From a virus: a stretch of 30,130 bases of DNA. The notes below the pieces were generated by a model. It made no database searches. It was not told the DNA's origin and worked only from the letters and a program-made list of their open reading frames with translations. The position numbers and the translations under genes were made by a program. The stretch's first letter is position 1. Every line of letters begins with the position of its first letter. The stretch covers positions 1 to 30,130 of the IMG/VR virus record IMGVR_UViG_3300042892_000945; one strand, 5' to 3'. Positions 3,917 through 24,585 of the stretch are shown piece after piece.

Positions 3917-6900
3917 ATGGCACGTATTAGAACCTTAAATTTCCTCCCGGAAATCTTTCAAACCCCTACTAACGCTGAATTTCTTTCGGCTACCCTCGAC
4001 CAGCTAACTAGCAACCCGGTTACTACCAGGGTGCAGGGATATGTAGGTAGTAGATTTGGTTCAGGAGTTAATGCTCTCAACTACTATGTTACTGAGCCAA
4101 CCAAAACTCGTACTGATTACCAGCTTGATCCAGGCGTGGTGTTTACTAAAACCGACGAATCAGTTGCTCAAGACTTTATTACGTATCCGGGAATTATTGA
4201 TTCATTGAAGCAGCAAGGAGCTGTCACTAATAACAATAATCGGTTGTTTGAGAGTCAATTCTATTCATGGGATAGTTTTACTAACTTAGATAAAATAGTT
4301 AATCACTATGAATATTATTGGCTTCCTGAAGGCCCTCCCGTAGTAACAGTGTCTCCTAGCGTAGTTTTCACTAACGAAGATTATATCGTCGGTGACTTAC
4401 CAAACGCATATGAATTAACAGAGGTTGGTTCTAGCAATAACACCGGACTCAATCCTACTATTTCGTTGTTGCGCGGCGGAACTTATAACTTCTTTGTTAA
4501 CCAAGACAGTCCATTCTATATTCAAACTATTCCGAGCGTGACTGGATTTAATCCTGATCAACCTTTTGTCAGTGTGCGTGATGTTTTTGGGGTAACCAAC
4601 AACGGTACTACCGATGGAGCTGTTACTTTTAATGTTCCTTCGAAGACTGCTCAAAACAACTTTATTTTTCCGGGCAACAACTTTGTTGATGTAGTCTCTA
4701 CTACACCATTTGATCAAGTAAATGGAAAAAATCTGTACGATGTTTTTGACCCTTCAACCGGTATTACTTATCCAGGGTTAGGCAATATTGACGGTGTTGT
4801 GGGTCTTAACGGCCTACGAGTAATGTTTTATAATGATGGCGTTCCTAATGAAATCGGATACGTTTCTTCATATTATGATGGTACAAATTATGATGTAAAT
4901 GATCCGCTCTTCACCGAACCTCAAACAGTTACTATCAGCAGCACAACAGCTACAGGAAACTTCCTGTCAATGGCAACTGGCTTCACTACAGACGAAATTA
5001 TCGTTAATCAAACTGTAACTTTTACTGCTCCTTTATTAGGTGGTCTACAAGAAGGCCAAGTTTATTTTGTCAAAGAAATTTTAAACTCTACTGACTTTAC
5101 TATTAGTACAAGCATCGGCGGTGCTACAGTATCGGTCGGAACAGATTCTGGCTTTAACACTACAGTTAACATCAACCAAGGTCAGTATGAACAAGGATTT
5201 TATACTAGTGTCAGCGAGAACTACTACAGAATTCAATTTGTAGGCGATCCTAATAATCCGGTACTAAGACTGTTGCCGGACGGTATCATTCCCAACGAAG
5301 AAAACATTACTCCTAGGTTTGGGGAACAATGGATAAACAGAACCTTCTATAGAAATACATTAGGTGTAATCAGTTTGGTTCCAACTGTTACCGCGCCACT
5401 AGATACGCTATATTATCAGGATGGCACTAATCCAAATAAAGTTGGCGTGATTAAAATCATTGAAAATACCGGTAAAGATTTTATCGATGTTGATACTGAA
5501 ATTTTAGGTAAAATAAACTACACATCACCAACCGGCGTTCAGTTTACAAACGGCCTAAAAGTAAGTTTTGATGGTAACATATTCCCGATCGGTTATCGAA
5601 CAGGTCAATACTACGTTGAAGGAGTAGGTACTGGGATTGAACTAGTATCAGTTGATGAACTAGTGACTCCTGAAAGTTTTTCAGCAGGAGCGTATATTCC
5701 ATGGGATGAATTTGGCTTTGATATTGGTAGCTATGACATCAGCTTGAATATTCCAGTTGACCCAGATTATATTACTATTGCTAGAAACAGTATTTCCAGA
5801 AATGCATGGGCTAGAAGTAACCGCTGGTTCCACATCGATGTCATTAACGCATCTGCACAATATAACAATAACCCAAACATTCTAACAGAATACGTTACTC
5901 CAGACAACAAAGCTAAAAGACCAATCATTGAGTTTTATCCAAACTTAAGATTGTTTGATTCTGGTGCGGTTGGCAAAAGACCGATCGATTTCTTTGATAC
6001 TCGTGCAGTAGATGCATTATCCGACGTAGCAGGATTGTTGAATTATTATCCTGACGTTGAGACTTATACTACGAATACTGCAACTGTTGCGGCTACTCCT
6101 ACTACACTTGTTAACGTTGTTGACATGGAAGCAGGTAAAACATATAGCATTAATGTATCAATTAGTCTAGGCGCAACAGGTCAAGCTGCATGGAACACAC
6201 TAGCCGGTACAATCGGAGTTTTCTATCAGACGGGTGACGAAATAACTTGTCAAATCGATGGCAACGAGCTAGCATTCCCGGGTAGCAGTAACGGAAGATT
6301 AATATACGATGAGACTACGGTTGTTATTCCTAATGATCAAATAACTGGTATATTTCAAATTGGTATGTATTTGGGTGATACCTTAAATATTGTCCCTACG
6401 AATTCTCAAATTACCGATCTAACAGATGACGGAACCGACACTACATTAACTATTACATGGCCCTATCCACAAGATGTTTTGGGCGGCGTAACTTCAGTTG
6501 TGGGCACAGATACACTAGCAAGCAATTATGCAGTATTCCCTGGCGCCCGCATTGTATTTTCTAATGACTCAAATGAAGAAACCAAACATACGATTTATGT
6601 AGTCGATATCGTCACAACAATTTTAGGACAAGAACCTAACATTGTGTTGATAAAGGCAGAAGATAGTAATGTTGGTATTGATGAGCAAGTTGCTATCAAG
6701 CGAGGATATAATAATCAAGGTAAAACTTTTTATTATACTGGATTAGCTTGGAACCAAGCACAGCAAAAAGTAACAGTCAATCAAGCTCCGTTCTTTGACG
6801 TATTTGATGAAAACGATATTTCGCTAGGAGATAGCGATATTTACGGTGGCACAACATTTAGGGGCTGTACTCTATTTGCTTATGGAATCAATCCATTAAC

Positions 6901-9900
6901 AGTTGATGACCCTATTTTAGGTTTCCCTGTTAGATACAGTGATGTCGCCAACATAGCTGATATTAGTTTTGATGTAACTATCAACTCTGATACGTTTAAC
7001 TATGTCCGCGGATTTGATTCTATAACTCAAAAAGTAAATACCGGATATGTGTATAACTATACCGCGGCTGATGCATTTACTAGAGAATTAGGATGGCAAA
7101 CCGCAGTTGAAAACAGTGTTCAATATCAGCTTTTCAGCTTCAAGTATGATATCCTTAATCCACCAACTCAGTTTGTTTGTGACATTGCAGCATTGCCTGA
7201 AGTACCTCTTAATAGCAAAGGCTGGCCTAGAGTTAAAGTATACAACAACAACGTATATTTGGAGCCGACTACTTACACGGTTGAAGTAACTGAAAACACA
7301 ACTACCATTACTTTGCTAGATTCTCCCGTTGAAGAAACAGTAATTCAAGTTCTACTATTGAGTGACCAAGTAAGTAATTCGGCTTATTATCAGATTCCTG
7401 ATAACTTGAATAACAACCCATTCAATGAAGACTTGACGGTTGCTGATGTCGGTGACATTCAGAATCATTATCAAGATATCTTTATCAATGCACCAAACAC
7501 AACTGGTCAAATCTTTGGAAGAAATAATTTCCGAGATTGCGGCGACTTGATTTCATATGGCACTAAGATTATTCAAAACAGTGCTTCACTTGCGTTGCCA
7601 GGCACCTTCTTACGTAAGACTGAACACAATGTTGTTGACGCATTACTATTCAACAGCCGCGAGTATATAAAGTATAAGCAACTGCTAGTAGACACTGTAC
7701 AAAATACAGATTATGTACAGAGATATACGCCATCTGAAATTTTAGATGCTGCTATTGAGCAAATATCTGCAAGCAAGAGTGAAGTTAATTCATTCTTTTG
7801 GTCTGACATGTTGCCAAACAAGGCACCATTCAGAACCACTACATATAACTTCAATAGCCTTGCTGATGTAACTAGATATCCGTTGAGTCAAGTTTATAAC
7901 TTTGAGTCAGCAAACTATAATGGTGTGTTGGTATACTTAAACCGCACGGTCGACAACAATCTAGTACAAACGCAGCTTTTAAGAAATGTTGACTATACTA
8001 TCAGCACAGATAGTCCATCGCTAACTATTACCCTAGATTTGGTGCCGGGCGACGAAGTTGTTATCAAAGAATATAACCAGACATATGGTTCATATGTTCC
8101 GTATACTCCTAGTAAGTTAGGACTCTACGCATTGACTCAGCCTAGTGTTGTGCTAGATAGCGATTACACCGTGCCTACTTACTTTATCAAGGGGCATGAC
8201 GGTTCGTTCACTAAGCTCTACGGCACATATAATCCTGTCACCGATGTTCTTGTGGACTTTAGAGACCAAGCATTGCTTGAGTTTGAAAAGAGAATCTATA
8301 ATAACGTCAAGCTAAGCACCGAAGTTCCTATCAAACTTTATGAAATATTGCCGGGCTTCTTTAGAGACAGTACATATAGCTATGCTGAATGGCTACAGAT
8401 GTACTCTACCAACTTCTTAAATTGGGTCGGTCAAAATAGAGTAGATTATAAAACTCAGTTTTTCAACAGAAATAATGAATTCACTTATAACTACACGAAC
8501 TCAGGTAACAAGTTAAATGGCGCCCCAATCAACCAAGGCTATTGGAGAGGTGTGTACGAGTATTTCTATGACACTACTACTCCTAACGAAACACCTTGGG
8601 AAATGTTGAGCTTTGCCAACGAACCAACTTGGTGGACTGCTCGGTATGGCGCGGCCCCTTATACAAGCGACAACTTAGTATTGTGGGGAGACCTCGCAGA
8701 AGGTAGAGTATACTCAGCAGACGGTACAAGTGTTATCGTTCCTGAGTTGGCTCGGCCTGGCTTACTAAACATTCTGCCCGTAGATTCAAGTGGTAATTTA
8801 TTAAGTCCGCTTGTCTCAATAGTAGGAAACTATAACCCAAGTACTTTCCAGAAAGACTGGGTAGTGGGAGATGACGGTCCAGTAGAACTTAGCTATCGTC
8901 GTAGTTCATCATATCCGTTCGATGTTATTAAGTTGTTTGCGTTAACTAGACCAGCAGAATTCTACAACTTGGCAGTTGATTTGGATAACTACAAATACAA
9001 CAGCGAGTTTAATCAATATCTCGTTAACAATAGATCACACTTGATTATTAATGACATTGAAATATACGGTAATGGCACTGCCAAAACTTCATATATCAAC
9101 TGGGTTGTTGACTTTGAAAAGCAATTTGGCATTGATGCCACAAACAATATCACTGAATTATTCAATAACCTAGACGTAAGATTAATCTATCGTTTGGCTG
9201 GATACAGTGACAAAACCTTACTCAACTTCTATGTTGAAAAGGGTTCACCCAATACTGCAAATGCCTCGTTGTTAATCCCAGATGAGAGTTACTCGGTAAT
9301 TCTTTATGACAATCAACCATTTGATCAGTTAGTATTCTCTAGTGTTGTTATTCAGAAAATAGGCAATGCATATGCTGTGTTTGGTAATTCACAAACCTTT
9401 GCTTACTTTACAGTTAAGGCTCCGATTAATAACGGCAATAATTCTAGACTTGAAGTATTGAAACAAACTGTTAAAGTGGCAAACGATTACACTAATACTG
9501 ATGTTTTAATACCATATGGTACTAAGTTCTATAGTACTCAAGAGGTAGCACAGTTTATTTCGAGCTATGCTGCTTATTTGAAAAGTAAAGGTGTAACATT
9601 TGATTTAATTGAAACCGGTAGAGAAATAAATTGGGACTTAATGATCCAAGAATTTTTGTATTGGACTCAGACTGGCTGGCAAGATGGAAGCATTATTACT
9701 CTTAATCCTTCTGCTACAGTGTTGGCTATAAACAAAGAAGGAAGTATTGTTCAGCCACTAACGCTTCAGCAGCAGAACTTTATTCTTAATCAAAACTTGT
9801 ATCCTATTCAGAATAATGAGTTGAATATACGCCGCGAAGGTACTGCCTTTATAGTTAACACATTAAATGAAGGCGATAGCATGTCTTTTGCACAGTTTAA

Positions 9901-12900
9901 TGTTAGTAACTTTGAGCATGGCATAGTGTTCGATAACACTACTTTATTCAATGATGTTATCTACAACCTTGTTACTGGGCTACGTCAAAATAGAATCACG
10001 TTGCGCGGAACTAAGACTGCGGAATGGAATGGCACAATCAATACTTGGGGCTTCATTCTCAATCAAGATAATGTTAAAGAATGGTCAAAGAATATTAAGT
10101 ATCCTAAGGGAGTAATTGTAAAATACAAGAACAAGTATTACGCTGCCCTTACACTAATTGAACCGACTGCTACCTTTAATGAGCTTAATTGGAAACTTAT
10201 AAACTATAATGATATACAAAAGGGACTATTGCCCAACAGTGCTACTAGATCATATGAAAGTACGCTGTACTATAATTGCAATGTCGCAAATCTAGAGCAG
10301 GATTCAGATTTATTATCCTATTCATTGATTGGGTATCGTCCAAGAGACTATCTAGCTCTTGCTGACTTAACCGACGTAGCACAGATCAATGTTTATAAAA
10401 ACATGATTAAGAATAAGGGTACTATCAACGCTGTCAGTGCGTTTGATGGCGCCACATTGCCACAGGGCGGAATTAAGTATGACGTATATGAAAATTGGGC
10501 TATCAAGTCCGGCGAATACGGTGGCGTACTAAGTCAAAACTTTGTAGAGTTTGGGTTAAACGAAAACGTATTGACCGGTAACCCAAGCATTGTATCACTA
10601 ACTAACGGCGTGTATACTGAAGGCGCCCAACAAGAAGTTCCGCTATACTCATTGTTAAATTACGGAACCCCTATCGTTGATCCAAATATTCTTGACACTA
10701 CAACTGACTATAAAAATGCATTGTATCCATCTGCCGGATATGCTAACTTTGATGATGTCAAGATGTCAGCGTTCTTTTATTCGGAACTAGCTAATTCTGT
10801 GAATAAAGCAGGACTCGTTGTTCCTATTCAAGACTTCTATGTAAGAGACTATTTCTGGTTAGCAAACTTTAAAGAGCAGTGGGGAATTTATGCTTGGCAA
10901 CCTATTGGTGCTGTTATTTCTGCATCTCCTAACAGTAATGGAACTGCTACAATAACATTCAATAAGCCACACAATCTATCAAGATTAGATCCTATTGCGA
11001 TTGTTAACTTTGCAGAAAACGTAGATGGTTATTTTATTGTATCACAAGTTGTCAATTTAAATCAAGTAATTATCAATCTAAACATCTCCAATACTCCTGA
11101 CAATATTATTCAGGGATTGGGCATAGGATTGTTGGTTACTAGTCAGCGAGTAGCAAAACCGTCCGACATTAATAACTTACCTTTACTAGAAGCTGAGTTT
11201 GTTAAGAACACCGTGTGGGTAGATGAAAACACAAACGGTGATTGGGCAGTGTATCGCAAAAATATCAATTACTTGCGTGAAGGTCAACTAACAGTAAACA
11301 ACACTACTAATTTTGGCGCAAGCGTGGCACACACTAATAACGTGGGATATTTAATTAGTGATCCGGCAAACGGCGTAGTGTATCGTTATTCTTACAATAT
11401 ATCCACCGACGATTATGAAATATCACAGACTATTACAAATGATACCTCGTTTGGTACCAAGATTGCATACAGTGATAACATATTTGCAATTTCACAGCCA
11501 ACTACCGACCCTAAAGTTTTCGTGTACGTTTGGAATGACACACGGGTTACTAATAATTTACTTGAGTGTCAAGTTATTGATGCACCGATCGGGGTAACTG
11601 ATTGGGGTAGCCAAATAGAAATTTCAGGCGATCAAAATTGGATTTACATCTCTGATAACCTAAATACTAAAGTTTATGTATACCGTAGAGATAGCATTGA
11701 GTTTAACGCAGGATACTTTACGACAGGCGAGACATACACCATCACTTCGTTATATGCAACAGTCCAAGCTGGTTCGTTTACTGTCGGTACAACATATACA
11801 ATCACTCAGCTAGGCACTACTGATTTCACACTTATTGGTGCTACTAGCAATGAAATAGGTCAAACATTTGTTGCGACTGCTGAAGGTACCGGTACGGGAG
11901 TAGCTACTGCGCCTGCTACTGACTTTACTGCATGCGGTGCCGTAGAAAACAGCATAGGTATAACATTTGTTGCAAGCGCATCGGTGCTTGCTAATACAAT
12001 GACAGCAGGATATGCGTATAAAATCGTAACCCTAAGCACTACCGATTGGAATGCAATTGGTTATGTAGGTACTCCTACTATAGGGGGAACGTTTGTATAT
12101 AACGGGGCTAGTTTTACGGGTTCAGGAACTGTTACCGGTAATGTCAGTAGTACTACAGGTACCGCAATACAAGTAACATATCAAGAAAGTGCGATCATTG
12201 ACGGAACTTCTTTGGGCTTAACCGGTACTGATGGCTTTGGTAAGTCAATCGCAACTGACCATTATAGTACGGCTGTCTTTATCGGTGCACCTAACAAGGA
12301 CTATAGTGGTTCTATCACCGATTGGGGAAGTGCTTACTCATATCAAAGATCAGTACAGAGATTTGAAGCGCAATTTACTACAGTTTCATATATACCTAGC
12401 ACGTTTGTATTAGGTTGGTCACCTGCTACAACTTCATATGATGTTTTGTCTACTAACGGAACTACTGATGTAATAACATTAAATACTGCTGCTGGTATCT
12501 CAGTTAATGATCCCATCATATTCACTGGCGTTGGATTATCTGGTACTAATATTACAGAAAATAAAACTTATTATGTGGCAGCGGCCCCTGTAGGCAATAC
12601 TATTACTATTAAGCTTAGCCGTTCAACTACTGATGTGTTCAACATTAACACTGTTGGTTCAATCACTACTGCTACTGCAATACTACAAGACACTCCTCTA
12701 TATGTTGTTGTCAACGGAACGTTAGTTTCTGATAGTAACTATGGTGTATCGGGTAATACTTTGTTTTATACCGGTAACCTAACAGCAGGTGATATTGTGG
12801 ACGTTAGCGGCAGCAGCTTCTACCAATCACAGTCATTTAATTCTAACTTTGCAGATAGAATTAATATTCAATTTGGGTCTGCCCTAGACGTAACGCAAAC

Positions 12901-15900: not shown

Positions 15901-18900
15901 TGCTGACATTGATCTATCAATTCATTCTGCTCCGAGAAAAGCAGCTATTCTCCAGGCAGTAATGAGTGGGGATAGAGTTACTGCAATCACCGTAGTAGAT
16001 CCCGGTGACGGATATCCTACATTACCAACAATCAATATCGAATCGGCATACACGGTTTATTTTGCTGATACTGACATCAATGCGGCCCTCAGTACTATAA
16101 ATGTATTTGCGTCTCAGCTAACCACTGGCGAAATTGTTAAATTTAGAAGCGGATCTAATGGTGCTACGCCTACTAAACTACAAGACAATCAGTGGTATTA
16201 TATCGGGGTATTGGAATCTCTTCCGGCAGTCGTTATTGCACTATACACTAGCTATAGTGATGCAGTCAAGGACCAAAACAGAATTGCAATTGCACCGGGC
16301 TTGGTATCAGATAATATGTCAATCTCGCCGGGAGCAAGAGCATCAATCATAACTTCCTCTGCCCCTATTCGTGAAAATAATATCACGCTTAGATTTGACA
16401 GAACTACCTATGACTCTCAGGTTCTTGATTGGGAAACCGGCGCATTCTATGGTGCGTTCTTTGCAGGTACCTACTATAATAGCGACAAGGTGTCTAGCTC
16501 TGCTATTACGCTAGAGAATGTAGAGCCAGATATTAACACTGTTCTTGCGAGTGCGCAGGGCGTAGCATTACAAATTTCTAATATAGAGAATGATAGAGAG
16601 CTATCCTGGTCATCGTTTATGCGATATGTGTCAGGTACTTTTTCTTCTAATAATGCAATCCAGCTAATTCCGCAAGACGGTAATAATCCAGATTTATCTG
16701 AACTTGAACCTAATGCTTCAGGCACCACAAACGGATTTTATGTAGGGATGCCGGTAATGTTTGTGGGAGCAGTTCCTGCTGGACTTAGTGAAAACCAAAC
16801 TTACTATGTCTCAGAAATACACGATCAGTTGCAATTTTCTGTTTCGCTGACAGATGGTGGTTCTTCTATCACTCTATCAAATGCTACGATAGGTCAGCAG
16901 GGTCTTGTTATGTATACAGCCGAAGTTACTGACACTGCAATTCTTACGGTAGATTACCCTGGCATTCTTGAAGTAACCGCTACTCAAGCGACGACCAATG
17001 CAATAACTGTACCACTGACTTCAGTAGGAACAGGTGGCACAATAGGGTTCTATACTAATCTTCCTCTATACTTTACTGGTACTACGTTTAGTAATGTTAT
17101 ACCAAACTTGACGTATTACGTAACAACTGTAATAGACAACGAAACTTTTACTATTAGCGAATTCGAAAACCCAGTATCATCTACTATTACTGCTACTACT
17201 ACTTCTACTAACGTTTTAACGGTTGAGTCTACAGTTGGTTTTAATAGAAATGATCCTATTATTATCACATCATTAACTGGTGGATTAGTTACTAGCAATA
17301 TAGTTGCTGGCACAACATATTATGTAAGCCAAATTATTAGCAGCAATCAACTTAGTATTTCTGCGGTAGTCAACGGTCCATTAGTTGCACTAGCGACTAC
17401 AGTAGGTTCAGCTACTATTACAAGTCAAAAAGACGTAGTACAGTTTGAAACAATGACTGGTTCAATGACTATGAACGTCTCGTTACCGGTAAGTCCTGGA
17501 CAAATCAACGGACAGTTGTTTACGTTATATCAAACATCAGAACAATATCCAAATGTCGAATCAGAAAGCTATAGCGACCTTATCGTAAGAAACATTAGAG
17601 CTACTATAGGAACTAATTATGGCGTAGCTGTGAATAGAATAGCTATCAGTGAGTTAGAAGGCGGTACTAATAACTTCTATGTCAACATGCCATTGCGTGT
17701 ATCGGTCAATGTTGGCAATTTGATTGCCGGCACAAATTATTATATTACCGAGTACTCAGGTGAGGAAATTCCTGATCCGGAAAATGCCGGAGAAACTATT
17801 AACAGACCAAACATTAAGGTAGAAGTTACTACTACATCAAGTATCGGTAACGTGCTGGTCAGTACAATTGATCTTTTACAAGGCTATATAGGAACTGCTT
17901 CATTGTATGAAGGTATGCCTATTGAATTCTCTGGTTTAGGATTGGGCGGGATTGTTATAGGACAGCAATATTTTGTTAAAAATATTATTGATGCCACTAA
18001 TTTTACTATTTCTGAATTGCCCGGCGGAGCCGCTCTAGTAGTAACTACTGCTAACGGAATCATGATTGGCATCGGCGATCCGTATATTGTTGTTTCCGAT
18101 ACTATACCTTTAGGTTCTGTTTTCAGCTTAGCTAACGATGTTCCTGCTACTAACACTGTATCCTTTACACAGTTTGTCACTGGCATACCTGAGTTTACTC
18201 TATCTTATATGGTGGGCGGATATAGAGCTATCATTACTGATGCAGGGTCTGGTTTTGCAATAAACAATCAAATTGCAATTTCCGGAACTGCGGTCAACGG
18301 GACATCTCCTAGAAATGATCTAACACTGACCGTCAATACTATAGATGAGTTCGGTGGAATAACTTCAGTTATTCGTACAGGTACCCCTCCTGAAATTGCT
18401 AGCAACTATTATTTACAAGTTCGTTCAGAAAACACCCTTGCTGTGTATGAAAATGCGTTGATGACAATACCTGCTAGTGGACTAGAGTTGCCCTATACTG
18501 GATACACTACTGCCACTGTGACAACTGCTACTACAGATACATTAACTGTAGATACTACGGGCTTTGAAAATTATGACGAAGTATACTTCACTGGTGAAAT
18601 CCCAACAAGTATCGTTCTTGGACAAGCATATTACTTGTACAACGTAACCAGCACTACAACACAAGTCACTGAAGTTCCGAACGATGCAACAACGTTGGTA
18701 ACTGGAATTACATTTGGTTCAGCATTTACGATGGCGAAATTAGGCAGCATTGCATTATTACCGGAGCCTTTCTATTTCAACCAAAGCGTAGTCAAATTTA
18801 ACAATCGTGTGTATATTTGTGTCATCTCAAACAATGATGATGAATTCATTTTTGGTAAGTGGGAACTAGTAGACAGCGGCGACCGTAGACTAAATGCTAT

Positions 18901-21900
18901 GGATAGAGTAATTGGTTATTATCAGCCCACAGTAAATATGCCGGGTGTTGACCTTACACAGTTGTTTGAGGGAGTAACATATCCTAATTCAACATACTTA
19001 GGAAATGCATTCCAGCCGGACGAGCAATATACTCTTGACACAACGCTAGTCGATCTTCCTTTCTATCCTAGCGATGCTGATGTTACTGGTGTAGTGTATG
19101 ACGGTTCACGTTATTTGGCTAGTACTAATCTACCCGGATACAGTGCTGTTCTACTAAGTGCAGACGGCGAAAATTGGCAGATTACTCGTCTAACAAATAC
19201 TAATATCAATCTTACAAATATCGTGTATAACACACCAACTTACTTAATCACTAGCTCTAATCCAGCAACTCCTATTTTAGTAAGCAGTGACGGAATAGTA
19301 TGGACTAGTGATTTGTACTATATCCCATTCGGCACCGATACTTCTATTCCATATGAAGTAGTAGCGTTGTCTAATGCTAGACTATCTATTAATAGCGCCG
19401 CATATTGCAGCAATGGCGGGGCCTGGATAGCGGTAGGCGAATCTATTCTAAGAAGTACTGATGACATTATTTGGGAAGAGACGGTTACCTTTGACCCAAC
19501 TTACTCATATGAATTATATGGTGTGTCTCCGATAACAGGAACTAACTGTATGGGTCTGGTTGCAGTAGGAAAAGGTAAAGAACCAGATTATTCAACTGGT
19601 GTAACTCAGCTAGTAGACATCAATTTGTTCTTCTATAGTTCAGATAGCATCAATTGGTCCCAGTCACCCGCACTCACTAATAAAGGCTTCTATGGCGTAT
19701 CTAGTGACAGTAGCATTGTTATCTCGGTTGGTGAAAGTGGCGTAATATATTATACACAAAACGGATTTGACTGGTTTGGTATAAATGAAGTCGAATGTAC
19801 GTTTGTGAACTCATCAACTAATGTATTAAATGTAACCGGGACTGCTGGATTTGTTGGCGGCGCATCAGGCACGCCAGTAAGATTCAACAAAGCATTCTCT
19901 AGCATTGCTGCTAACACAACTTATTATGTTAAATCAATAGTTTCAAGCACACAGGTCACCTTGTCTGATACGTTGAACGGTACAGAAAAAACATTAACTA
20001 CTAGTTCTGTCCCTGCAGGCACTAGAATGTTTATCTATGATGCAGCAGATCCAAATCCTGCAACATTGCGAGATCTTACATATGCTAATGGTGTTTGGAT
20101 TGCAGTAGGTGATAATGGAACTATCAAAACTTCAGCAACCGGGTTTATTTGGAACGAGGTATCTCTAACAATTACTGCTGATTTGAATAGCATAACATAT
20201 AATGCTAGCGACACATCATTTGTTGCTTCGGGCGAAAACAACACTATTCTGACTAGTACCGACAATGGCGTAACTTGGGATGAAACATCAATATTCACTC
20301 CTATACCTACAGCCTATGATGTTCAGGGAGCTGATTTCCAATTCGGTTATGCCCCTGAAGAATTAGTAGCAGGTGTAATATCAGATAATTTTGCAATGAT
20401 TGTGAATACTCGCCCCGGCACAAATTGGCCAGTTGTTGAGTACGGTCACACCGGCTATAACGCAATATCAGTCGAATTGACTCCGACAGATGGAACGCAA
20501 CTAGAATATAGCTTTGCAAATGTTGCAAAGGTTCCAGCTCATGTTAGTATTCAAGTTATTAACGGAAACACAGGATTAGGAACAACACTATCGCCTAACA
20601 GTTATGATATTGATTGGGTAAACAAACTAGTAACCCTAAATGCTCCGTTATCTTTCTCTCCAAGACTTGATAAACTAAGAATTGATGTCTACGAAGTAGG
20701 TAACGGCGACCAGCTAGTTAAATCTAGCACAGACACCTTGCCTATCAAAACCTCAGCGACGACTGGATTCAATGAGATTGATTTAAATTGTAATTACAGT
20801 GCAGTAATTTATGCAGGAAGCGGCGCGCTCCGCCCCGGAACTGACAACGTAAATGTTAGAGTATTTGAAACTGAAGCAATTGCTGATAGAATTTTCTGTG
20901 ATGACGTAGCAGACTTTATTTTAAACAGTCCGATTAGTTTCCAAGGTTTACCGTTCGGCGGACTCCAAGAAGAAACAGTATATTATGTAAAGACTATCAG
21001 TGTTGCATCTAATGCTATTACTGTATCAGAGGTGTACGATACTATAAGTGGTCAAGCAGGACCCACTACAGAATTGACTGACGCTACCGGTGAAATGTTT
21101 GCAAACATTCAAAATGGTGTTGGCGCGATATGGTCTGACCCTGTAGTTGACCACAATGGTGAAAAATTAGTATTTGGTGGAACAGGTTTGATTACCAGAA
21201 CAATAGCTTCAAGCGATACAATTGTTACCGGAACTACCTCAGGCTTGATAGTAGGAACACCTATCACATTCGGTCAAGCATCGTTTGGCGCGCTAGTACC
21301 TTTCCAAAGATATTATATTCAGTCAATCGTTGATGGAAACGAGTTTACTATTTCCGAAACTCAAGGTGGTCCGGTGGTATCTCAAGTTGATTTTGTCGGT
21401 CAAACTAGATACGTAACAAACGATTATGCTATTGGTTCTCGCCCTGGTAACCAGGCTAGACTTGTGTTTGCTACGAACACTTATACCAATGATACGGATT
21501 ATATTGTATTCTCTATTTTTGGAGAAACTATACCGGAACAGTACGGATATGCATTGCCTGAAACAGAATATTTTGCAGGGAACGGGTCAACCGCAGAGTT
21601 CTATCTTAACAATTTTGTTGGTTATAACAATCCTAATAATGCGGTAGTCGAAGTGAATGGTATACGTTTAACTAAGTCGCAATATACTATTGATCCTGTT
21701 CTGAATGTTGTTACTTTTGTAAGTCCTCCTATCGCAGATTCTACGGTATCAGTGACGACCTACAATGATACTACTAGACAGTATCTTACAAGTCAGTACA
21801 ATGTAACTGGTAACCCTGGATCATCTTTGGTGAATTTAGTCGTAGTAGCTACTACGCAAGAAGTCGGAACATATGATCAGGACACGCCGGTAGTACAGAC

Positions 21901-23806
21901 GTTTGACCAAGATGACCCTAGTATAGTTTTGTATGATGAATTTTTGAATTACTTAACTTTGGACAGCGGCGGCGATGATACTAGCATTCTCAATGTAAAT
22001 GACTCTGTTCAATTTAGTTCCCCTACTCTAGGAGGAATTGTTGCAGGTAGAACATACTATATTATTGAAATCATAAACTCAACAGATTTTGTAATTTCAG
22101 AACAAGTATCCGGAGCTCCGTTTGAAGTATTCAACGATACCGGATCTATGCCAGTGCTAGCAAACGGCTTAACTGTTTCAGGAATATCAAACATTATCAA
22201 CACGATTGCCCCTCCTATTGCTATAACTAATGCAACTGCATCAACTGCTGGGTCACCTAATGAAATTACGGTTACTGATGTTACGGGCTTTGCAGTGGGG
22301 CAACCAGTTCAATTCTTTGGTATTTCATTCGATGCAAATATTGAGACTGACGGAGTGGTATACTTTGTTAAGACTATAGATACGCTTAATGACAAGTTTA
22401 CTATTTCAAATACGCAGGGCGGCCCTACTAAAACACTAGCAGGTGGTACTGGAAATATGAGTGTAGAAGTCGGCGGCAATCCCGCAATACGTGTTACTAC
22501 AGCAATTGAAAACAAGTTTGTGGAAAATACGCTAATTCGTATTGACGGAACAGAAGGTTCAATTCAACTCAACAATAATACGTACTATGCTAAAATCATA
22601 GATGATTTTACTTTTGATTTATACAATCAACCGTACAGTCCTGCTATAGGCGCAGTAAATGATCCAGTCACAACAATTTCGGCCTACACTGGCGGCGGAT
22701 ACACTTGGCGTCAAGGACTGTTCTTTATTGCTACTACGGTAGCTACTGCTACTACCTCAGGCACTGGATTCATAACAGTAGATTCTACTACTGATTTGGT
22801 TGCAGGAACTCCGGTATACTTTAGTTTAATAGAAGAAAAATCAGGTGCCACATTGATGGGAGGACTGGTACAGGGTCAGGAATACTATGTACGTTCTGTT
22901 GAAACTGCAACTGCATTTACTATTTCTAATACTAGATACGGTGATCCTGTAACACTTACAAGTGATACCGGTCAAATTTATGTGACCCAGTGGTCTCAGG
23001 AAAATGTTGATAGACTTTGGGTCACTGTTAATGGTTATCGTGTACCATCTTCTAAACTTAAGGTTAATCCTGCAAACGAAGTAAGTATATTGACTCAAAT
23101 TACACCGGGTAACCAAATTATCATTTCAAGTATGATACCGACCGCAACACCAAACGAAGAAACTTATATTAACTATGTTGATAATACTAATAATGCTTCG
23201 GTATATAGAGTAAATCCGCAAATTTCAACATGGTTAACTCAAGCTATCAACCCACTAAGTGATGTGATATATGTACAGGATGTTACTAAGCTAGCTAACC
23301 TAATCGTGCAAACAGAAGTCACTCCTGCTACGGTAGCCGGATTCTATTACATTGGACTAACCGCAGACAAAACATTGATTGCTAATGTGAGTGTACTCAA
23401 TAAAACGACCGGAAACGTATTACCAGAAGAAGCATTAAGTGTAGTGCTAATAGACCTATCACCTAATGTCAAAATTGTACCTGGAGCCTACATTACAGTA
23501 GGAGATGAGCTAGTAATCACTACGCTTGAAGGAAACATAATAAATGTAGGAAGTGAGCAGATTAGGTTCGGCACCGCAGACTTTGAAAACAACACATTAG
23601 GACAGTTGTCACGTGGAGTAAATGGTACCGCAAGAAGAAGTTTTACTCCTACATATACCCCGGTATATGGATTGTTGTCAAGCAATAAACTTCCAGATAT
23701 TTACTATACCCAATCTTGGAATTCGTTTGTTTATAACACGGTAGAGGGCGATCCGCTACAAATTAGTGATACTTTACCTGCTAACTTCCTAATTGCAAGT
23801 AATTAA
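3917..23806 (+). CDS. Giant modular virion structural protein, probably the baseplate periphery at the gp7 position
   Basis: A single frame encodes 6629 residues, roughly 0.7 MDa. The conserved start (MARIRTLNFLPEIFQTPTNA) and two core blocks at about residues 1286-2338 and 3296-3853 resemble large structural proteins of marine T4-like phages. Inserted in or after this core are a cupredoxin-like domain (about 179-258), an FG-GAP propeller (about 2462-3292), an Asp-box propeller (about 5056-5462), and many copies of two small repeat modules. No signal peptide, membrane segment or catalytic motif is evident. T4 places gp7 (1032 residues) directly after gp6, so position suggests a wedge-periphery role like gp7, perhaps fused with adhesin-like functions that T4 puts in separate proteins. 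That role is inference. Phage structural origin is nearly certain. The ATG has no clear ribosome site and sits five bases after a late promoter octamer. Confidence 0.85.
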   Translation: MARIRTLNFLPEIFQTPTNAEFLSATLDQLTSNPVTTRVQGYVGSRFGSGVNALNYYVTEPTKTRTDYQLDPGVVFTKTDESVAQDFITYPGIIDSLKQQGAVTNNNNRLFESQFYSWDSFTNLDKIVNHYEYYWLPEGPPVVTVSPSVVFTNEDYIVGDLPNAYELTEVGSSNNTGLNPTISLLRGGTYNFFVNQDSPFYIQTIPSVTGFNPDQPFVSVRDVFGVTNNGTTDGAVTFNVPSKTAQNNFIFPGNNFVDVVSTTPFDQVNGKNLYDVFDPSTGITYPGLGNIDGVVGLNGLRVMFYNDGVPNEIGYVSSYYDGTNYDVNDPLFTEPQTVTISSTTATGNFLSMATGFTTDEIIVNQTVTFTAPLLGGLQEGQVYFVKEILNSTDFTISTSIGGATVSVGTDSGFNTTVNINQGQYEQGFYTSVSENYYRIQFVGDPNNPVLRLLPDGIIPNEENITPRFGEQWINRTFYRNTLGVISLVPTVTAPLDTLYYQDGTNPNKVGVIKIIENTGKDFIDVDTEILGKINYTSPTGVQFTNGLKVSFDGNIFPIGYRTGQYYVEGVGTGIELVSVDELVTPESFSAGAYIPWDEFGFDIGSYDISLNIPVDPDYITIARNSISRNAWARSNRWFHIDVINASAQYNNNPNILTEYVTPDNKAKRPIIEFYPNLRLFDSGAVGKRPIDFFDTRAVDALSDVAGLLNYYPDVETYTTNTATVAATPTTLVNVVDMEAGKTYSINVSISLGATGQAAWNTLAGTIGVFYQTGDEITCQIDGNELAFPGSSNGRLIYDETTVVIPNDQITGIFQIGMYLGDTLNIVPTNSQITDLTDDGTDTTLTITWPYPQDVLGGVTSVVGTDTLASNYAVFPGARIVFSNDSNEETKHTIYVVDIVTTILGQEPNIVLIKAEDSNVGIDEQVAIKRGYNNQGKTFYYTGLAWNQAQQKVTVNQAPFFDVFDENDISLGDSDIYGGTTFRGCTLFAYGINPLTVDDPILGFPVRYSDVANIADISFDVTINSDTFNYVRGFDSITQKVNTGYVYNYTAADAFTRELGWQTAVENSVQYQLFSFKYDILNPPTQFVCDIAALPEVPLNSKGWPRVKVYNNNVYLEPTTYTVEVTENTTTITLLDSPVEETVIQVLLLSDQVSNSAYYQIPDNLNNNPFNEDLTVADVGDIQNHYQDIFINAPNTTGQIFGRNNFRDCGDLISYGTKIIQNSASLALPGTFLRKTEHNVVDALLFNSREYIKYKQLLVDTVQNTDYVQRYTPSEILDAAIEQISASKSEVNSFFWSDMLPNKAPFRTTTYNFNSLADVTRYPLSQVYNFESANYNGVLVYLNRTVDNNLVQTQLLRNVDYTISTDSPSLTITLDLVPGDEVVIKEYNQTYGSYVPYTPSKLGLYALTQPSVVLDSDYTVPTYFIKGHDGSFTKLYGTYNPVTDVLVDFRDQALLEFEKRIYNNVKLSTEVPIKLYEILPGFFRDSTYSYAEWLQMYSTNFLNWVGQNRVDYKTQFFNRNNEFTYNYTNSGNKLNGAPINQGYWRGVYEYFYDTTTPNETPWEMLSFANEPTWWTARYGAAPYTSDNLVLWGDLAEGRVYSADGTSVIVPELARPGLLNILPVDSSGNLLSPLVSIVGNYNPSTFQKDWVVGDDGPVELSYRRSSSYPFDVIKLFALTRPAEFYNLAVDLDNYKYNSEFNQYLVNNRSHLIINDIEIYGNGTAKTSYINWVVDFEKQFGIDATNNITELFNNLDVRLIYRLAGYSDKTLLNFYVEKGSPNTANASLLIPDESYSVILYDNQPFDQLVFSSVVIQKIGNAYAVFGNSQTFAYFTVKAPINNGNNSRLEVLKQTVKVANDYTNTDVLIPYGTKFYSTQEVAQFISSYAAYLKSKGVTFDLIETGREINWDLMIQEFLYWTQTGWQDGSIITLNPSATVLAINKEGSIVQPLTLQQQNFILNQNLYPIQNNELNIRREGTAFIVNTLNEGDSMSFAQFNVSNFEHGIVFDNTTLFNDVIYNLVTGLRQNRITLRGTKTAEWNGTINTWGFILNQDNVKEWSKNIKYPKGVIVKYKNKYYAALTLIEPTATFNELNWKLINYNDIQKGLLPNSATRSYESTLYYNCNVANLEQDSDLLSYSLIGYRPRDYLALADLTDVAQINVYKNMIKNKGTINAVSAFDGATLPQGGIKYDVYENWAIKSGEYGGVLSQNFVEFGLNENVLTGNPSIVSLTNGVYTEGAQQEVPLYSLLNYGTPIVDPNILDTTTDYKNALYPSAGYANFDDVKMSAFFYSELANSVNKAGLVVPIQDFYVRDYFWLANFKEQWGIYAWQPIGAVISASPNSNGTATITFNKPHNLSRLDPIAIVNFAENVDGYFIVSQVVNLNQVIINLNISNTPDNIIQGLGIGLLVTSQRVAKPSDINNLPLLEAEFVKNTVWVDENTNGDWAVYRKNINYLREGQLTVNNTTNFGASVAHTNNVGYLISDPANGVVYRYSYNISTDDYEISQTITNDTSFGTKIAYSDNIFAISQPTTDPKVFVYVWNDTRVTNNLLECQVIDAPIGVTDWGSQIEISGDQNWIYISDNLNTKVYVYRRDSIEFNAGYFTTGETYTITSLYATVQAGSFTVGTTYTITQLGTTDFTLIGATSNEIGQTFVATAEGTGTGVATAPATDFTACGAVENSIGITFVASASVLANTMTAGYAYKIVTLSTTDWNAIGYVGTPTIGGTFVYNGASFTGSGTVTGNVSSTTGTAIQVTYQESAIIDGTSLGLTGTDGFGKSIATDHYSTAVFIGAPNKDYSGSITDWGSAYSYQRSVQRFEAQFTTVSYIPSTFVLGWSPATTSYDVLSTNGTTDVITLNTAAGISVNDPIIFTGVGLSGTNITENKTYYVAAAPVGNTITIKLSRSTTDVFNINTVGSITTATAILQDTPLYVVVNGTLVSDSNYGVSGNTLFYTGNLTAGDIVDVSGSSFYQSQSFNSNFADRINIQFGSALDVTQTSSELLIGSPFEISEENQEGSVYRFTNAGARFGVIVGEEECNLGADTTIFINGYSVNVLAGNATIVATAINNTNVPNVQASATEDNRLIIQIVDQNIANINNKLAVAAFDNTSLTQLGIAIYTPSQIITCPNEFGPTQFGKAIKFNEFDSVIIGAPVGANIVGTTFDFTDDENLDNDTVFDNNATRFVDSYPNSGAVYMFDLLSNYNGSATNPGAFVYAQTVNTPAIDVELSPLYGLAIDFNNNSVIVGAPNTIVTSATTGNVTTFVNATGIRDWSEFRQSSAIVDINKIQNTQIFSAITNNTLINLDYMDPLQDKLLGAIRENIDFVSSTDPASYNNDAASLTGYVWGAEQLGRIWFNTRNVRFVNYHQNDVVYNSEYWGTLFPGSTVLVATWVASNVPPSQYRGPGIPIDPSRYCVGSTMNASNVVTPVYYFWARNTNLIDRKREKTLADTVIAEYIQNPQSSGIAYLAPLLPNTFALYNSNQYINVADAVLHLGFASGSASDIVHNEYSLIRQNYADDFLPGLPASIYSPVTFPNRVLYPSTGEAEVPTSLYARMLDSLSGCAAGGEVVPNPFLPKAVQSGILARPRQSFFYNRLMAVQNYLTYANAILIQYPITEIRPNVTFAFAQDEFFNTPNFWNLTNWWLPGYSNDTRAAMLVPLYADLAELSVATGTIVKVEQNGQGLFEMYRYDANDVWTRIGLENGTFQFNSYLWDYDEAGFGFGNDFFDTTPYDLYPSEETRNIVRALNEQVYVGNLAEYRNKSLILLFEYIQSETIESQNYLPWLSKTSLADVFHTVRQLQPFQVFKSDNVEFLEGYLNEVKPYHVVIKEFLIKYDGLEEFTGDITDFDLPATYNTEVQQYITPQLVYSVPDNEYQYEVDSPIWSTLPYTQWYQNYGLSIVGEPNYNITAIQSYMDLGTRSVIVDNASGFPVNGVIQIGQETIAYSSVDRDLNILGGLSRGFNQTAISEHIPGEQVFIDLPPVVVLNEGEGYTFVPRVTADIDLSIHSAPRKAAILQAVMSGDRVTAITVVDPGDGYPTLPTINIESAYTVYFADTDINAALSTINVFASQLTTGEIVKFRSGSNGATPTKLQDNQWYYIGVLESLPAVVIALYTSYSDAVKDQNRIAIAPGLVSDNMSISPGARASIITSSAPIRENNITLRFDRTTYDSQVLDWETGAFYGAFFAGTYYNSDKVSSSAITLENVEPDINTVLASAQGVALQISNIENDRELSWSSFMRYVSGTFSSNNAIQLIPQDGNNPDLSELEPNASGTTNGFYVGMPVMFVGAVPAGLSENQTYYVSEIHDQLQFSVSLTDGGSSITLSNATIGQQGLVMYTAEVTDTAILTVDYPGILEVTATQATTNAITVPLTSVGTGGTIGFYTNLPLYFTGTTFSNVIPNLTYYVTTVIDNETFTISEFENPVSSTITATTTSTNVLTVESTVGFNRNDPIIITSLTGGLVTSNIVAGTTYYVSQIISSNQLSISAVVNGPLVALATTVGSATITSQKDVVQFETMTGSMTMNVSLPVSPGQINGQLFTLYQTSEQYPNVESESYSDLIVRNIRATIGTNYGVAVNRIAISELEGGTNNFYVNMPLRVSVNVGNLIAGTNYYITEYSGEEIPDPENAGETINRPNIKVEVTTTSSIGNVLVSTIDLLQGYIGTASLYEGMPIEFSGLGLGGIVIGQQYFVKNIIDATNFTISELPGGAALVVTTANGIMIGIGDPYIVVSDTIPLGSVFSLANDVPATNTVSFTQFVTGIPEFTLSYMVGGYRAIITDAGSGFAINNQIAISGTAVNGTSPRNDLTLTVNTIDEFGGITSVIRTGTPPEIASNYYLQVRSENTLAVYENALMTIPASGLELPYTGYTTATVTTATTDTLTVDTTGFENYDEVYFTGEIPTSIVLGQAYYLYNVTSTTTQVTEVPNDATTLVTGITFGSAFTMAKLGSIALLPEPFYFNQSVVKFNNRVYICVISNNDDEFIFGKWELVDSGDRRLNAMDRVIGYYQPTVNMPGVDLTQLFEGVTYPNSTYLGNAFQPDEQYTLDTTLVDLPFYPSDADVTGVVYDGSRYLASTNLPGYSAVLLSADGENWQITRLTNTNINLTNIVYNTPTYLITSSNPATPILVSSDGIVWTSDLYYIPFGTDTSIPYEVVALSNARLSINSAAYCSNGGAWIAVGESILRSTDDIIWEETVTFDPTYSYELYGVSPITGTNCMGLVAVGKGKEPDYSTGVTQLVDINLFFYSSDSINWSQSPALTNKGFYGVSSDSSIVISVGESGVIYYTQNGFDWFGINEVECTFVNSSTNVLNVTGTAGFVGGASGTPVRFNKAFSSIAANTTYYVKSIVSSTQVTLSDTLNGTEKTLTTSSVPAGTRMFIYDAADPNPATLRDLTYANGVWIAVGDNGTIKTSATGFIWNEVSLTITADLNSITYNASDTSFVASGENNTILTSTDNGVTWDETSIFTPIPTAYDVQGADFQFGYAPEELVAGVISDNFAMIVNTRPGTNWPVVEYGHTGYNAISVELTPTDGTQLEYSFANVAKVPAHVSIQVINGNTGLGTTLSPNSYDIDWVNKLVTLNAPLSFSPRLDKLRIDVYEVGNGDQLVKSSTDTLPIKTSATTGFNEIDLNCNYSAVIYAGSGALRPGTDNVNVRVFETEAIADRIFCDDVADFILNSPISFQGLPFGGLQEETVYYVKTISVASNAITVSEVYDTISGQAGPTTELTDATGEMFANIQNGVGAIWSDPVVDHNGEKLVFGGTGLITRTIASSDTIVTGTTSGLIVGTPITFGQASFGALVPFQRYYIQSIVDGNEFTISETQGGPVVSQVDFVGQTRYVTNDYAIGSRPGNQARLVFATNTYTNDTDYIVFSIFGETIPEQYGYALPETEYFAGNGSTAEFYLNNFVGYNNPNNAVVEVNGIRLTKSQYTIDPVLNVVTFVSPPIADSTVSVTTYNDTTRQYLTSQYNVTGNPGSSLVNLVVVATTQEVGTYDQDTPVVQTFDQDDPSIVLYDEFLNYLTLDSGGDDTSILNVNDSVQFSSPTLGGIVAGRTYYIIEIINSTDFVISEQVSGAPFEVFNDTGSMPVLANGLTVSGISNIINTIAPPIAITNATASTAGSPNEITVTDVTGFAVGQPVQFFGISFDANIETDGVVYFVKTIDTLNDKFTISNTQGGPTKTLAGGTGNMSVEVGGNPAIRVTTAIENKFVENTLIRIDGTEGSIQLNNNTYYAKIIDDFTFDLYNQPYSPAIGAVNDPVTTISAYTGGGYTWRQGLFFIATTVATATTSGTGFITVDSTTDLVAGTPVYFSLIEEKSGATLMGGLVQGQEYYVRSVETATAFTISNTRYGDPVTLTSDTGQIYVTQWSQENVDRLWVTVNGYRVPSSKLKVNPANEVSILTQITPGNQIIISSMIPTATPNEETYINYVDNTNNASVYRVNPQISTWLTQAINPLSDVIYVQDVTKLANLIVQTEVTPATVAGFYYIGLTADKTLIANVSVLNKTTGNVLPEEALSVVLIDLSPNVKIVPGAYITVGDELVITTLEGNIINVGSEQIRFGTADFENNTLGQLSRGVNGTARRSFTPTYTPVYGLLSSNKLPDIYYTQSWNSFVYNTVEGDPLQISDTLPANFLIASN
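4451..4690 (+). other. Cupredoxin-like beta domain within the giant protein
   Basis: At about residues 179-258 the sequence runs NPTISLLRGGTYNFFVN, then SPFYIQT, then GVTNNGTTDGAVTFNVPS. This order matches a beta-sandwich pattern (NPTL.L.RG.TY.F.V....PFYI.T....GVTNNG...G...F.VP) that I know from marine phage and bacterial proteins related to cupredoxins. The His and Cys copper ligands at the end of classical cupredoxins are not seen, so a structural or carbohydrate-contact role is more likely than metal chemistry. The call rests on pattern memory, not on a search. Confidence 0.45.
4927..5175 (+). repeat. YYV/FTIS module, N-terminal single copy in the giant protein
   Basis: This is the first copy of a module of about 70-80 residues found about fifteen times in this protein. 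The order is a beta start (TVTISSTTATGNFLSMATGF), then VTFTAPLLGGLQEGQVYFVK, then NSTDFTISTSIGG, and a closing strand. The shared signature is a hydrophobic strand ending in FTAP or similar, then GG.xxG..Y[YF]VK.I....FTIS...GG. The module recurs in phage structural proteins. I know no biochemical function for it. Confidence 0.75.
7770..10930 (+). other. Conserved core block 1 of the giant protein
   Basis: Residues about 1286-2338 are less repetitive and richer in helix and aromatic residues than the rest of the protein. Recognisable stretches include NSFFWSDMLPNKAPFR, EILPGFFRDSTYSYAEWL, TPWEMLSFANEPTWWTARYG, YPFDVIKLFALTRPAEFYN, FLYWTQTGWQDGS, IGYRPRDYLALADLTDV and YDVYENWAIKSGEYGG. I recognise these as conserved landmarks of large T4-like marine phage structural proteins. 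This block and block 2 are the best candidates for the part that contacts the baseplate wedge. Confidence 0.6.
11708..12142 (+). repeat. Three GTTYTI/TDFT repeats, one nested inside another
   Basis: The full unit, AGSFTVGTTYTITQLGTTDF followed by TLIGATSNEIGQTFVATAEG and TGTGVA, occupies 11768-11917 with its tail. It interrupts a homologous unit whose first half (AGYFTTGETYTITSL, 11708-11752) and second half (TDFTACGAVENSIGITFVAS, from 11918) lie on either side. A third, more diverged unit (TAGYAYKIVTLSTTDWNAIG, then GGTFVYNGASFTGSGTV) follows at 11996-12142. The whole cluster sits between blades 3 and 4 of the FG-GAP propeller. Confidence 0.75.
12439..12650 (+). repeat. YYV-type module inserted after propeller blade 4 (divergent copy)
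   Basis: The stretch TDVITLNTAAGISVNDPIIF, then TGVGLSGTNITENKTYYVAA, then NTITIKLSRS keeps the order beta strand, V.DP.IF, G....N.TYYV, short strand seen in the other copies. It lacks the GG pair and the FTIS sequence. It is followed by a separate strand-loop piece (LYVVVNGTLVSDSNYGVSGN) before propeller blade 5 begins. Confidence 0.6.
13800..15470 (+). other. Conserved core block 2 of the giant protein
   Basis: Residues about 3296-3853 return to non-repetitive, aromatic-rich sequence after the FG-GAP propeller. Landmarks are MDPLQDKLLGAIRENIDF, GYVWGAEQLGRIWFNTRNVR, YYFWARNTNLIDRKREKTLA, LARPRQSFFYNRLMAVQNYL, NLTNWWLPGY and LNEVKPYHVVIKEFLIKYDG. With block 1 it looks like one ancestral baseplate-associated domain split by the propeller. 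No enzyme motif was seen. Confidence 0.55.
15662..15835 (+). repeat. IG.E.I.Y...LSRG beta module, first copy
   Basis: RSVIVDNASGFPVNGVIQIG, then QETIAYSSVDRDLNILGGLS, then RGFNQTA form a module typical of phage structural proteins: a strand, a G..ETI.Y hairpin and an L.RG..GT-like turn. A second copy near the C-terminus of the giant protein (about 23500-23660) carries GSEQIRFGTADFENNTLGQL followed by SRGVNGTARR. The first copy is followed by two GYxxxP motifs (EGEGYTFVPRV and DPGDGYPTLPTI). Confidence 0.6.
16643..18710 (+). repeat. Cluster of about six YYV/FTIS modules in the giant protein
   Basis: Signature lines appear in succession at these approximate starts: 16643 (GLSENQTYYVSEI...FSVSLTDGG), 16973 (LTYYVTTVIDNETFTISEF), 17190 (IVAGTTYYVSQIISSNQLSI), 17576 (LIAGTNYYITE, divergent and longer), 17884 (GGIVIGQQYFVKNIIDATNF then TISELPGG) and 18510 (IVLGQAYYLYNV, divergent). 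Between the fifth and sixth lies a GSGF-type beta piece. The copies differ clearly in sequence, so most of the duplications are old. Confidence 0.75.
19081..20300 (+). other. Asp-box (BNR-like) seven-bladed beta-propeller in the giant protein
   Basis: Seven Asp-box-like turns are visible in order: SADGENW (residues 5081-5087), SSDGIVW, STDDIIW, SSDSINW, TQNGFDW, SATGFIW and STDNGVTW (starting at residue 5447). Each is preceded by a strand such as GVWIAVGDNGTIKT or IVISVGESGVIYYT, the layout of BNR/YCF48-like propellers. The spacing is even except between boxes 5 and 6, where a YYV-type module (19793-20045) is inserted. Sialidase catalytic residues cannot be recognised. A binding or scaffold role is more likely, and T4 gp7 itself contains a GQTW-type propeller stretch. 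Confidence 0.7.
19793..20045 (+). repeat. YYV-type module inserted within the Asp-box propeller
   Basis: CTFVNSSTNVLNVTGTAGFV, then FNKAFSSIAANTTYYVKSIV, then SSTQVTLSDTLNG and a closing strand follow the order of the other modules. It lies between TQNGFDW and SATGFIW, two adjacent propeller turns. Confidence 0.65.
20885..22985 (+). repeat. Second cluster of about six YYV/FTIS modules in the giant protein
   Basis: Copies start at about 20885 (FGGLQEETVYYVKTISVASN), 21196 (RYYIQSIVDGNEFTISETQG), 21942 (GGIVAGRTYYIIEIINSTDF then VISEQVSG), 22220 (VVYFVKTIDTLNDKFTISNT then QGGP), 22480 (a variant with QLNNNTYYAKIIDDFTFDLY) and 22730 (GGLVQGQEYYVRSVETATAF then TISNTRYG). Between the second and third is a different beta piece (FAGNGSTAEFYLNNF then VVEVNGIRLTKSQYTID), a motif common in phage fibres. 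Confidence 0.75.
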
Positions 23807-23824: not shown

Positions 23825-23965
23825 ATGAATAAGAACATGAAACCCAGCAAAAATATCTCTGAAAAAAAGCCTAACGAAGTAGGAGGGTTTTACTTCTCCT
23901 CTGGCATTAAAATATTTGATCCGACATCAAAAGAAGTTCTTCTGCAAAAAAGAGGAGACAACTAA
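23825..23965 (+). CDS. Small uncharacterised 46-aa phage protein
   Basis: This 46-residue frame starts MNKNMKPSKNISEKKPNEVG and ends in SGIKIFDPTSKEVLLQKR plus GDN. The N-terminal half is charged and probably disordered. The C-terminal half resembles residues 11-30 of the next protein (EGFLKIYDPNDGEVFVDKKN), with the shared pattern KI.DP...EV...K. The stop overlaps the next start by one base (TAATG), so translation is probably coupled. Its own ribosome site is weak; an alternative ATG at 23837 would shorten it by four residues. A late promoter octamer directly precedes it. The coupling, the motif and the promoter make it a likely real gene. I cannot assign a function. Confidence 0.65.
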   Translation: MNKNMKPSKNISEKKPNEVGGFYFSSGIKIFDPTSKEVLLQKRGDN

Positions 23966-24585
23966 TGTCTATTATTAACATGTCATATAAAGTTGAAGGC
24001 TTTCTCAAGATTTACGACCCGAACGATGGGGAAGTTTTTGTAGATAAAAAGAACGCTATCAATTACGAGAACATGTCCGAAGCTATTGCAGATACCTTGA
24101 GTAGTCGAGGCTACGGAGAAATCTATCAGATGGCATTTGGCAACGGCGGCGCTAGCGTCGATCAGACCGGCGTAATTACATATCTTCCACCTAACGTGAC
24201 TGGACAAAATGCTGCTCTGTACAACCAAACATACGCTAAGATTGTAGATGACACTAGTGTTTTCAATCTTGATCCAACTAGAAATAAAATGACAGTATCA
24301 CATACTGTAGGAAACTTATACTCAGATATCGTAGTGCAGTGTTTGCTTGATTATGGTGAGCCAGCAGGACAGGCGGCGTTCGATAACAGCACGCAGACCG
24401 ATTCAGCATACGTATTTGATGAAATTGGATTGTTAGCTAACTATGGTACAAACAATGCTGGTACAGTAATCACTAGATTATTGACTCATGTTATCTTTCA
24501 TCCTGTGCAGAAATCATTAAACAGACAGATTCAAATCGATTATACAATTAGAATTCAAAGTCTCACGAACTTAGTAACAATTTAA
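23965..24585 (+). CDS. Putative virion structural protein, possibly a fibre-baseplate connector
   Basis: This 206-residue protein sits between the giant baseplate protein and the fibre genes. Visible landmarks are KVEGFLKIYDPNDGEVFVDK near the start, MAFGNGGASVDQTG at about 56-69, TDSAYVFDEIGLLAN at about 145-159, and a strand-rich end (RLLTHVIFHPVQKSLNRQIQ then IDYTIRIQSL). The FGNGG region recalls the FGDG turns of N-terminal fibre-attachment domains in contractile phages, but the similarity is loose. No membrane or enzyme motif was seen. A strong ribosome site (AGAGGAG, 23951-23957) lies seven bases before the ATG, inside the preceding small gene. Position suggests that it joins the fibres to the baseplate; this is inference. 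Confidence 0.6.
   Translation: MSIINMSYKVEGFLKIYDPNDGEVFVDKKNAINYENMSEAIADTLSSRGYGEIYQMAFGNGGASVDQTGVITYLPPNVTGQNAALYNQTYAKIVDDTSVFNLDPTRNKMTVSHTVGNLYSDIVVQCLLDYGEPAGQAAFDNSTQTDSAYVFDEIGLLANYGTNNAGTVITRLLTHVIFHPVQKSLNRQIQIDYTIRIQSLTNLVTI

Follow-up and report, generated by a model that had tools for sequence, protein, structure and literature searches.

Gene content and order at the locus

The window analysed here is an IMG/VR record of 30,130 bases, a metagenomic contig. Its first genes are a gp25-like baseplate wedge gene (44-493, + strand, 149 aa; PF04965 above cut-off, phrog_43/261) and a gp6-like baseplate wedge gene (540-3908, + strand, 1122 aa), the latter matching phrog_10646 (E 4e-254) and phrog_219, "baseplate wedge subunit" (E 2e-25). 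Starting 8 nt past the end of the gp6-like gene, ORF calling located a single open frame with an ATG start (3917-23806, + strand). The encoded protein, hereafter the giant, has 6629 aa, a computed molecular mass of 725 kDa and a pI of 4.2. It is followed by a conserved gene for a 206-aa protein that matched phrog_11259 (23965-24585, + strand). In phage PA5oct, a gene of similar size occupies the same place, and its product has been seen by mass spectrometry according to the sequence record.

On 20 of 20 related contigs, the gp6-like gene immediately preceded the giant. PA5oct, CBB and Phosso retain the order gp25-gp6-giant, as does 121Q, where an HNH gene separates gp25 from gp6. Direct adjacency to gp6 was likewise observed in Atu_ph07, RaK2 and IMG/VR contigs, so that the giant came directly after the gp6 position in every phage examined. 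In the Salicola phage SCTP-2, the gene at the gp6 position is large as well, encoding 3096 residues (contig L121, 609-9899).

The giant gene is maintained as a single coding frame

Related viral contigs (n = 80) were retrieved with one core stretch of the giant as query. The frame was open through the whole fetched stretch in 79 of them, and the 16 IMG/VR contigs reaching the 3' end all carried it as a single closed frame of about 5,860-6,750 aa. Thus, the frame is neither a chance product nor an assembly joint. One of the 16 complete homologues differs from the window protein by 1 residue and the other 15 have diverged; most of the 16 share the C-terminal pattern GDPLQIS...A.FL. On the remaining contig of the 80 (L057), the frame stopped early after 2914 codons (stop at 15560-15562), which reflects either an error or a true split.

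Synonymous divergence was near saturation along the entire frame and far above amino-acid divergence, with pS values of 0.71-0.86 versus pN values of 0.13-0.34 in every segment (seven segments, four comparisons). The giant gene is hence real and maintained as one coding frame. The first-pass annotation of the window had reported this unbroken frame of about 20 kb after the gp6-like gene, which we have confirmed together with its similarly long homologues. It had also raised an assembly error fusing separate genes, a reading to which the metagenomic source and the mere 30 kb of the contig lend some colour; its probability is now negligible, as it is refuted in practice by the 16 complete homologues on other contigs, the near-identical one included, and by purifying selection spanning the whole frame.

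The giant belongs to a jumbo-phage family of virion proteins

Successive pieces of the giant matched phrog_10938, "virion structural protein" (E 1.5e-167, 1.9e-117 and 4.9e-45), and this family was matched by 35 of 35 family N-termini. The Pfam scan returned no family covering the protein. By tblastn, about 86 cultured jumbo-phage records matched the first third of the giant, the holders being RaK2-like phages, PA5oct and its kin, Agrobacterium phage Atu_ph07, Sinorhizobium phage Phosso, Salicola phage SCTP-2 and Vibrio phage 2.275.O. Stenotrophomonas phages RAS14 and CM1 and Xanthomonas phage XacN1 were more distant members, and a member is also present in GAP32. The named proteins include RaK2 ORF070w, 121Q gp582, CBB_236, phAPEC6 gp245, PA5oct gp355, Atu_ph07 gp180 and SCTP-2 gp140. 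A seven-member family profile matched at least 592 IMG/VR stretches, whereas PA5oct or SCTP-2 segments scanned singly against viral contigs gave no matches. The RAS14 member is very diverged (3138 aa; contig L226, 5380-14796) and contains an insert with a weak match to the head-protein family phrog_1236 (E 1.9e-4).

The window protein and the cultured members are homologous across the core and partly at the C-terminal cap, and they share the slot after gp6. They differ in length (6.6 thousand versus 3.1-4.6 thousand residues) and in the arm of 73-aa modules, present in the window protein and absent from the cultured members. Insert A is much shorter in the cultured forms, and the propeller-1 stretch is short in 121Q, CBB, PA5oct and Vibrio phage 2.275.O. 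In cultured phages, tblastn gave no match to window positions 17231-23803. With its last third lacking a counterpart there, the giant is an enlarged form of this already listed family.

Shorter relatives are virion components. In CBB virions, CBB_236 was detected by mass spectrometry with 21 peptides (PMC5259590), and in phAPEC6 virions gp245 (382 kDa) was detected with 17 peptides (PMC7247149). The sequence record of PA5oct gp355 carries an ESI-MS/MS note. These data concern relatives of 3.3-3.9 thousand residues, all devoid of the 73-aa module, and a peptide coverage of about 8% is too low to demonstrate an intact chain. The presence of same-position relatives in virions supported the earlier description of the giant as a structural protein in a baseplate cluster. 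PHROGs places phrog_10938 in the category "head and packaging", which speaks against a baseplate location but is made less likely by the gene order. In the open-access literature, we have found no functional study of a protein of this family.

A discontinuous conserved core

We have mapped the core by aligning 16 long forms and 7 cultured jumbo-phage forms. It comprises about 2,200 residues in six segments plus a C-terminal cap, all on the + strand. Segment 1 (aa 1-150, 3917-4366) has a predicted helical start, was conserved in all seven cultured phages aligned and falls within the phrog_10938 match. The alignment with cultured phages further delimited segment 2 (aa 600-700, 5714-6016), segment 3 (aa ~851-1300, 6467-7816) and segment 5 (aa 2101-2300, 10217-10816). 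Between the last two lies segment 4 (aa 1401-2050, 8117-10066), with the near-invariant motif GxWRGxYxxxYxTxxPxxxPWEM, and segment 6 (aa 3251-3880, 13667-15556) ends with the motif WxxKTS...E(V/A)KPY. The cap (about aa 6541-6629, 23537-23803) bears the motif IG.E.I.Y...L.GLTRG..GT, common to the window, PA5oct, Atu_ph07 and Phosso and weaker in 121Q and CBB. A conserved core had been proposed before, in two blocks (7770-10930 and 13800-15470); the core stands, and its layout is revised, as the two blocks correspond to its later part only and the alignment gave a larger core of six segments plus the cap.

Propellers, repeat modules and a variable arm

The regions between and after the core segments, again on the + strand, contain adhesin-like modules. 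Insert A (aa 151-599, 4367-5713) includes one copy of a ~73-aa beta module at 4937-5161, and insert B (aa 701-850, 6017-6466) is variable in the alignment. Inside the core, near aa 2051-2100 (10067-10216), lies a CBM5/12-like (chitin-binding type 3) patch. It matched PF02839 in three of seven members, at E 0.036 in the window and 2.6e-4 in PA5oct, all below the family cut-off, and the chitinase A1 domain at E 0.014.

Insert C (aa 2301-3250, 10817-13666) contains one further copy of the 73-aa module and an FG-GAP/integrin-like beta-propeller (propeller 1). FG-GAP_2 was found in 15 of 16 members (best E 3.7e-9), integrin alpha-4 matched at E 0.004, and internal repeats were present at 2445-2790. 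The arm (aa 3881-6540, 15557-23536; 2,660 residues) holds 12 of the 14 module copies, other beta repeats and a YCF48/BNR-like propeller (propeller 2, about aa 5052-5454, 19070-20278). The latter matched the PSII_BNR profile in 9 of 15 members (best E 1.8e-6) and has internal repeats about 43 aa apart. The integrin-type FG-GAP and YCF48/BNR propellers are matched by modules within the giant only, the giant itself being of another family.

The 73-aa module gave no Pfam match. The window has 14 copies, against 1 match across 20 shuffled versions of the protein; each of 15 long relatives has 8-15 copies and the seven cultured forms have none. Across the 16 sequences, the arm varied more in length than the rest of the protein (CV of 9.5% versus 3.3%), and its length tracked module number (rho 0.82, the 16 sequences being related and hence non-independent). 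The module also occurs in cyanophage structural proteins and in a Gordonia phage minor tail protein. In the virion structural proteins of cyanophages Syn1 and S-RIM44, it is present as one copy (about 43% identity over 72 aa), and the records that the core of the giant matched do not include these phages. The profiles, internal repeats, shuffled controls and alignment bear out what the first-pass annotation had read from the window: two propellers, many repeat modules, and adhesin-like modules inserted in and appended to a conserved core.

Comparison of the core with T4 gp7

The giant holds the slot of T4 gp7, a baseplate wedge subunit of 1032 aa that is likewise encoded directly after gp6. 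T4 gp7 is six times smaller, and no sequence or fold similarity between the two was detectable. When deeper core profiles were compared with nine T4-type gp7s in HHalign, the probability was <1%, the same as for a reversed-gp7 control; the profile searches recommended earlier as a check therefore gave no signal above background. HHalign comparison of nine blocks of the giant with T4 gp6-gp12 showed no homology either. Bridging via RAS14, CM1 and XacN1 stayed within the same family and reached no smaller gp7-like protein. A search for a helix-bundle relative with the N-terminal 150 residues, run against PHROGs and the PDB, returned only phrog_10938. A profile that finds the gp7 of T4 found no gp7 elsewhere in 121Q, PA5oct, Atu_ph07 or the contigs of five large relatives; this result concerns the relatives, the window itself being a genome fragment.

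Because structure prediction was limited to 1200 residues, we have folded two pieces of the insert-poor relative 121Q (residues 1-1200 and 1264-2463), using family alignments that comprised 57 and 65 members, window included. The models are therefore of 121Q and not of the window. The first half of the core gave a confident model (pLDDT 84.5, pTM 0.82). Searched against predicted viral structures, this model strongly matched long members of its own family, including that of Atu_ph07, or unnamed proteins; the weaker matches were fibre-like proteins with poor superposition. The second half gave a weaker model (pLDDT 74.8, pTM 0.46). Neither half had a PDB match at E <= 0.001, although Foldseek can overlook a small shared domain in a chain of 1200 residues. 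The insignificant matches of the second half included two baseplate chains, of AlgoCIS (7aeb_G, E 0.13, probability 0.02) and of phiKZ (9xqs_U, E 0.56, probability 0.01). As modelled, the confidently predicted part of the core resembles no solved structure.

The giant could be a genuine but highly divergent gp7 (baseplate triplex subunit 2) that insertions have enlarged, with part of its core bundling with two gp6 copies. This would be compatible with the shared slot, with the failure to find another gp7 in the three phages and five relatives' contigs, and with the N-terminal helices, whose prediction in isolation was of low confidence, as can happen with helices that belong to a bundle. The below-significance fold matches to 7aeb_G and 9xqs_U point in the same direction, but are no evidence on their own. 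The profile signal, however, did not exceed the reversed control, and neither core half found a significant fold match even though T4 and injection-system baseplates are present in the PDB. We consider descent from gp7 rather unlikely. The gp7 analogy drawn at first thus held for the position after gp6 and gained no support beyond it: the giant has the position of gp7, not demonstrably its ancestry.

The same early reading had suggested that one chain might do the work that T4 spreads over gp7 to gp12. The profiles of T4 gp8, gp9, gp10, gp11 and gp12 found no match in the giant chain. Weak matches to the gp9/gp10 N-domain lay elsewhere on the relatives' contigs, outside the giant, and separate tail-fibre genes are located downstream of it. 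Gp8 was not found in any relative searched, an absence that alone proves no fusion. With the gp7 comparisons negative and the gp9/gp10 N-domain matches elsewhere, the one-chain proposal is unsupported.

A putative baseplate scaffold presenting surface-binding modules

We favour as probable that the giant is a virion protein of one broad jumbo-myophage group, whose core forms a scaffold together with gp6, in or near the baseplate wedge, and which presents surface-binding modules. The ~2,200-residue core would assemble with gp6 and fill the genome slot of gp7, perhaps also its place in the particle. The FG-GAP propeller, the CBM5/12-like patch, the YCF48-like propeller and the about 14 beta modules would then be surface-binding elements, sitting in core loops and in the long arm ahead of the conserved cap. 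Several copies may ring the baseplate, six if wedge symmetry is followed, with flexible beta arms held out towards the host envelope. The arms could supplement tail-fibre binding with further weak contacts or with a step of irreversible binding. Propellers, CBM-like domains and beta modules are usual components of phage adhesins. From this usual use and from the gene order, we infer the baseplate location, the binding of the wedge scaffold to gp6, the six copies and the host-surface contact.

In its furthest-reaching form, which we regard as possible if doubtful, gp7 has been replaced by an unrelated giant of undescribed fold that closes the wedge and also carries host-binding arms, in a single chain that can reach about 6,750 residues. 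Such an architecture would be unlike those of T4 and of known injection systems.

Two other readings were weighed. The giant could be a fibre or whisker protein that forms tail hairs and only shares a cluster with baseplate genes. Its long arm of beta modules would suit this, and hairs do run along the tails of CBB and phAPEC6 (PMC5259590, PMC7247149), but the CBB authors expect the hair genes among those missing from GAP32 (PMC5259590), and GAP32 has the giant. The core, moreover, shows much stronger conservation than the arm and is linked to gp6, and we consider the fibre reading improbable. Still lower stands a polyprotein, cleaved during assembly to give separate core, propellers and arm. 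The size of the giant and its insert junctions invite the idea, as do the maturation proteases encoded by jumbo phages, such as RaK2 ORF092 (PMC3622015); profile scans, however, revealed no protease or self-cleaving domain in the chain, and conservation of the core extends to the C-terminal cap. On these two grounds, the polyprotein reading was set aside.

The giant may exceed every other single component of these tails in size. The family, present in about 86 cultured records and at least 592 IMG/VR stretches, has nevertheless been annotated only as hypothetical or structural. If a gp7 role is indeed performed without a gp7 fold, the supposedly universal gp25-gp6-gp7 wedge would not be universal. 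The 73-aa module and its copy count also provide a way to study how jumbo phages in the environment alter their surface contacts.

Tail-fibre genes downstream of the giant

The tail-fibre gene at 24598-27273 has a GTG start and encodes 891 aa. Its product contains repeats of TNAQPNITSVGTLSSLAVTGN-like units and ends in a domain resembling Gp53. It is followed by a tail-fibre assembly chaperone gene (27275-27649; Phage_tail_APC above cut-off), which lies between two fibre genes. The second of these (27692-28930) encodes a fibre-like protein of 412 aa with a weak Peptidase_G2 match near its end, below cut-off; Peptidase_G2 is an intramolecular chaperone that cleaves itself. The first ~75 residues of the 412-aa protein resemble those of the 891-aa fibre.
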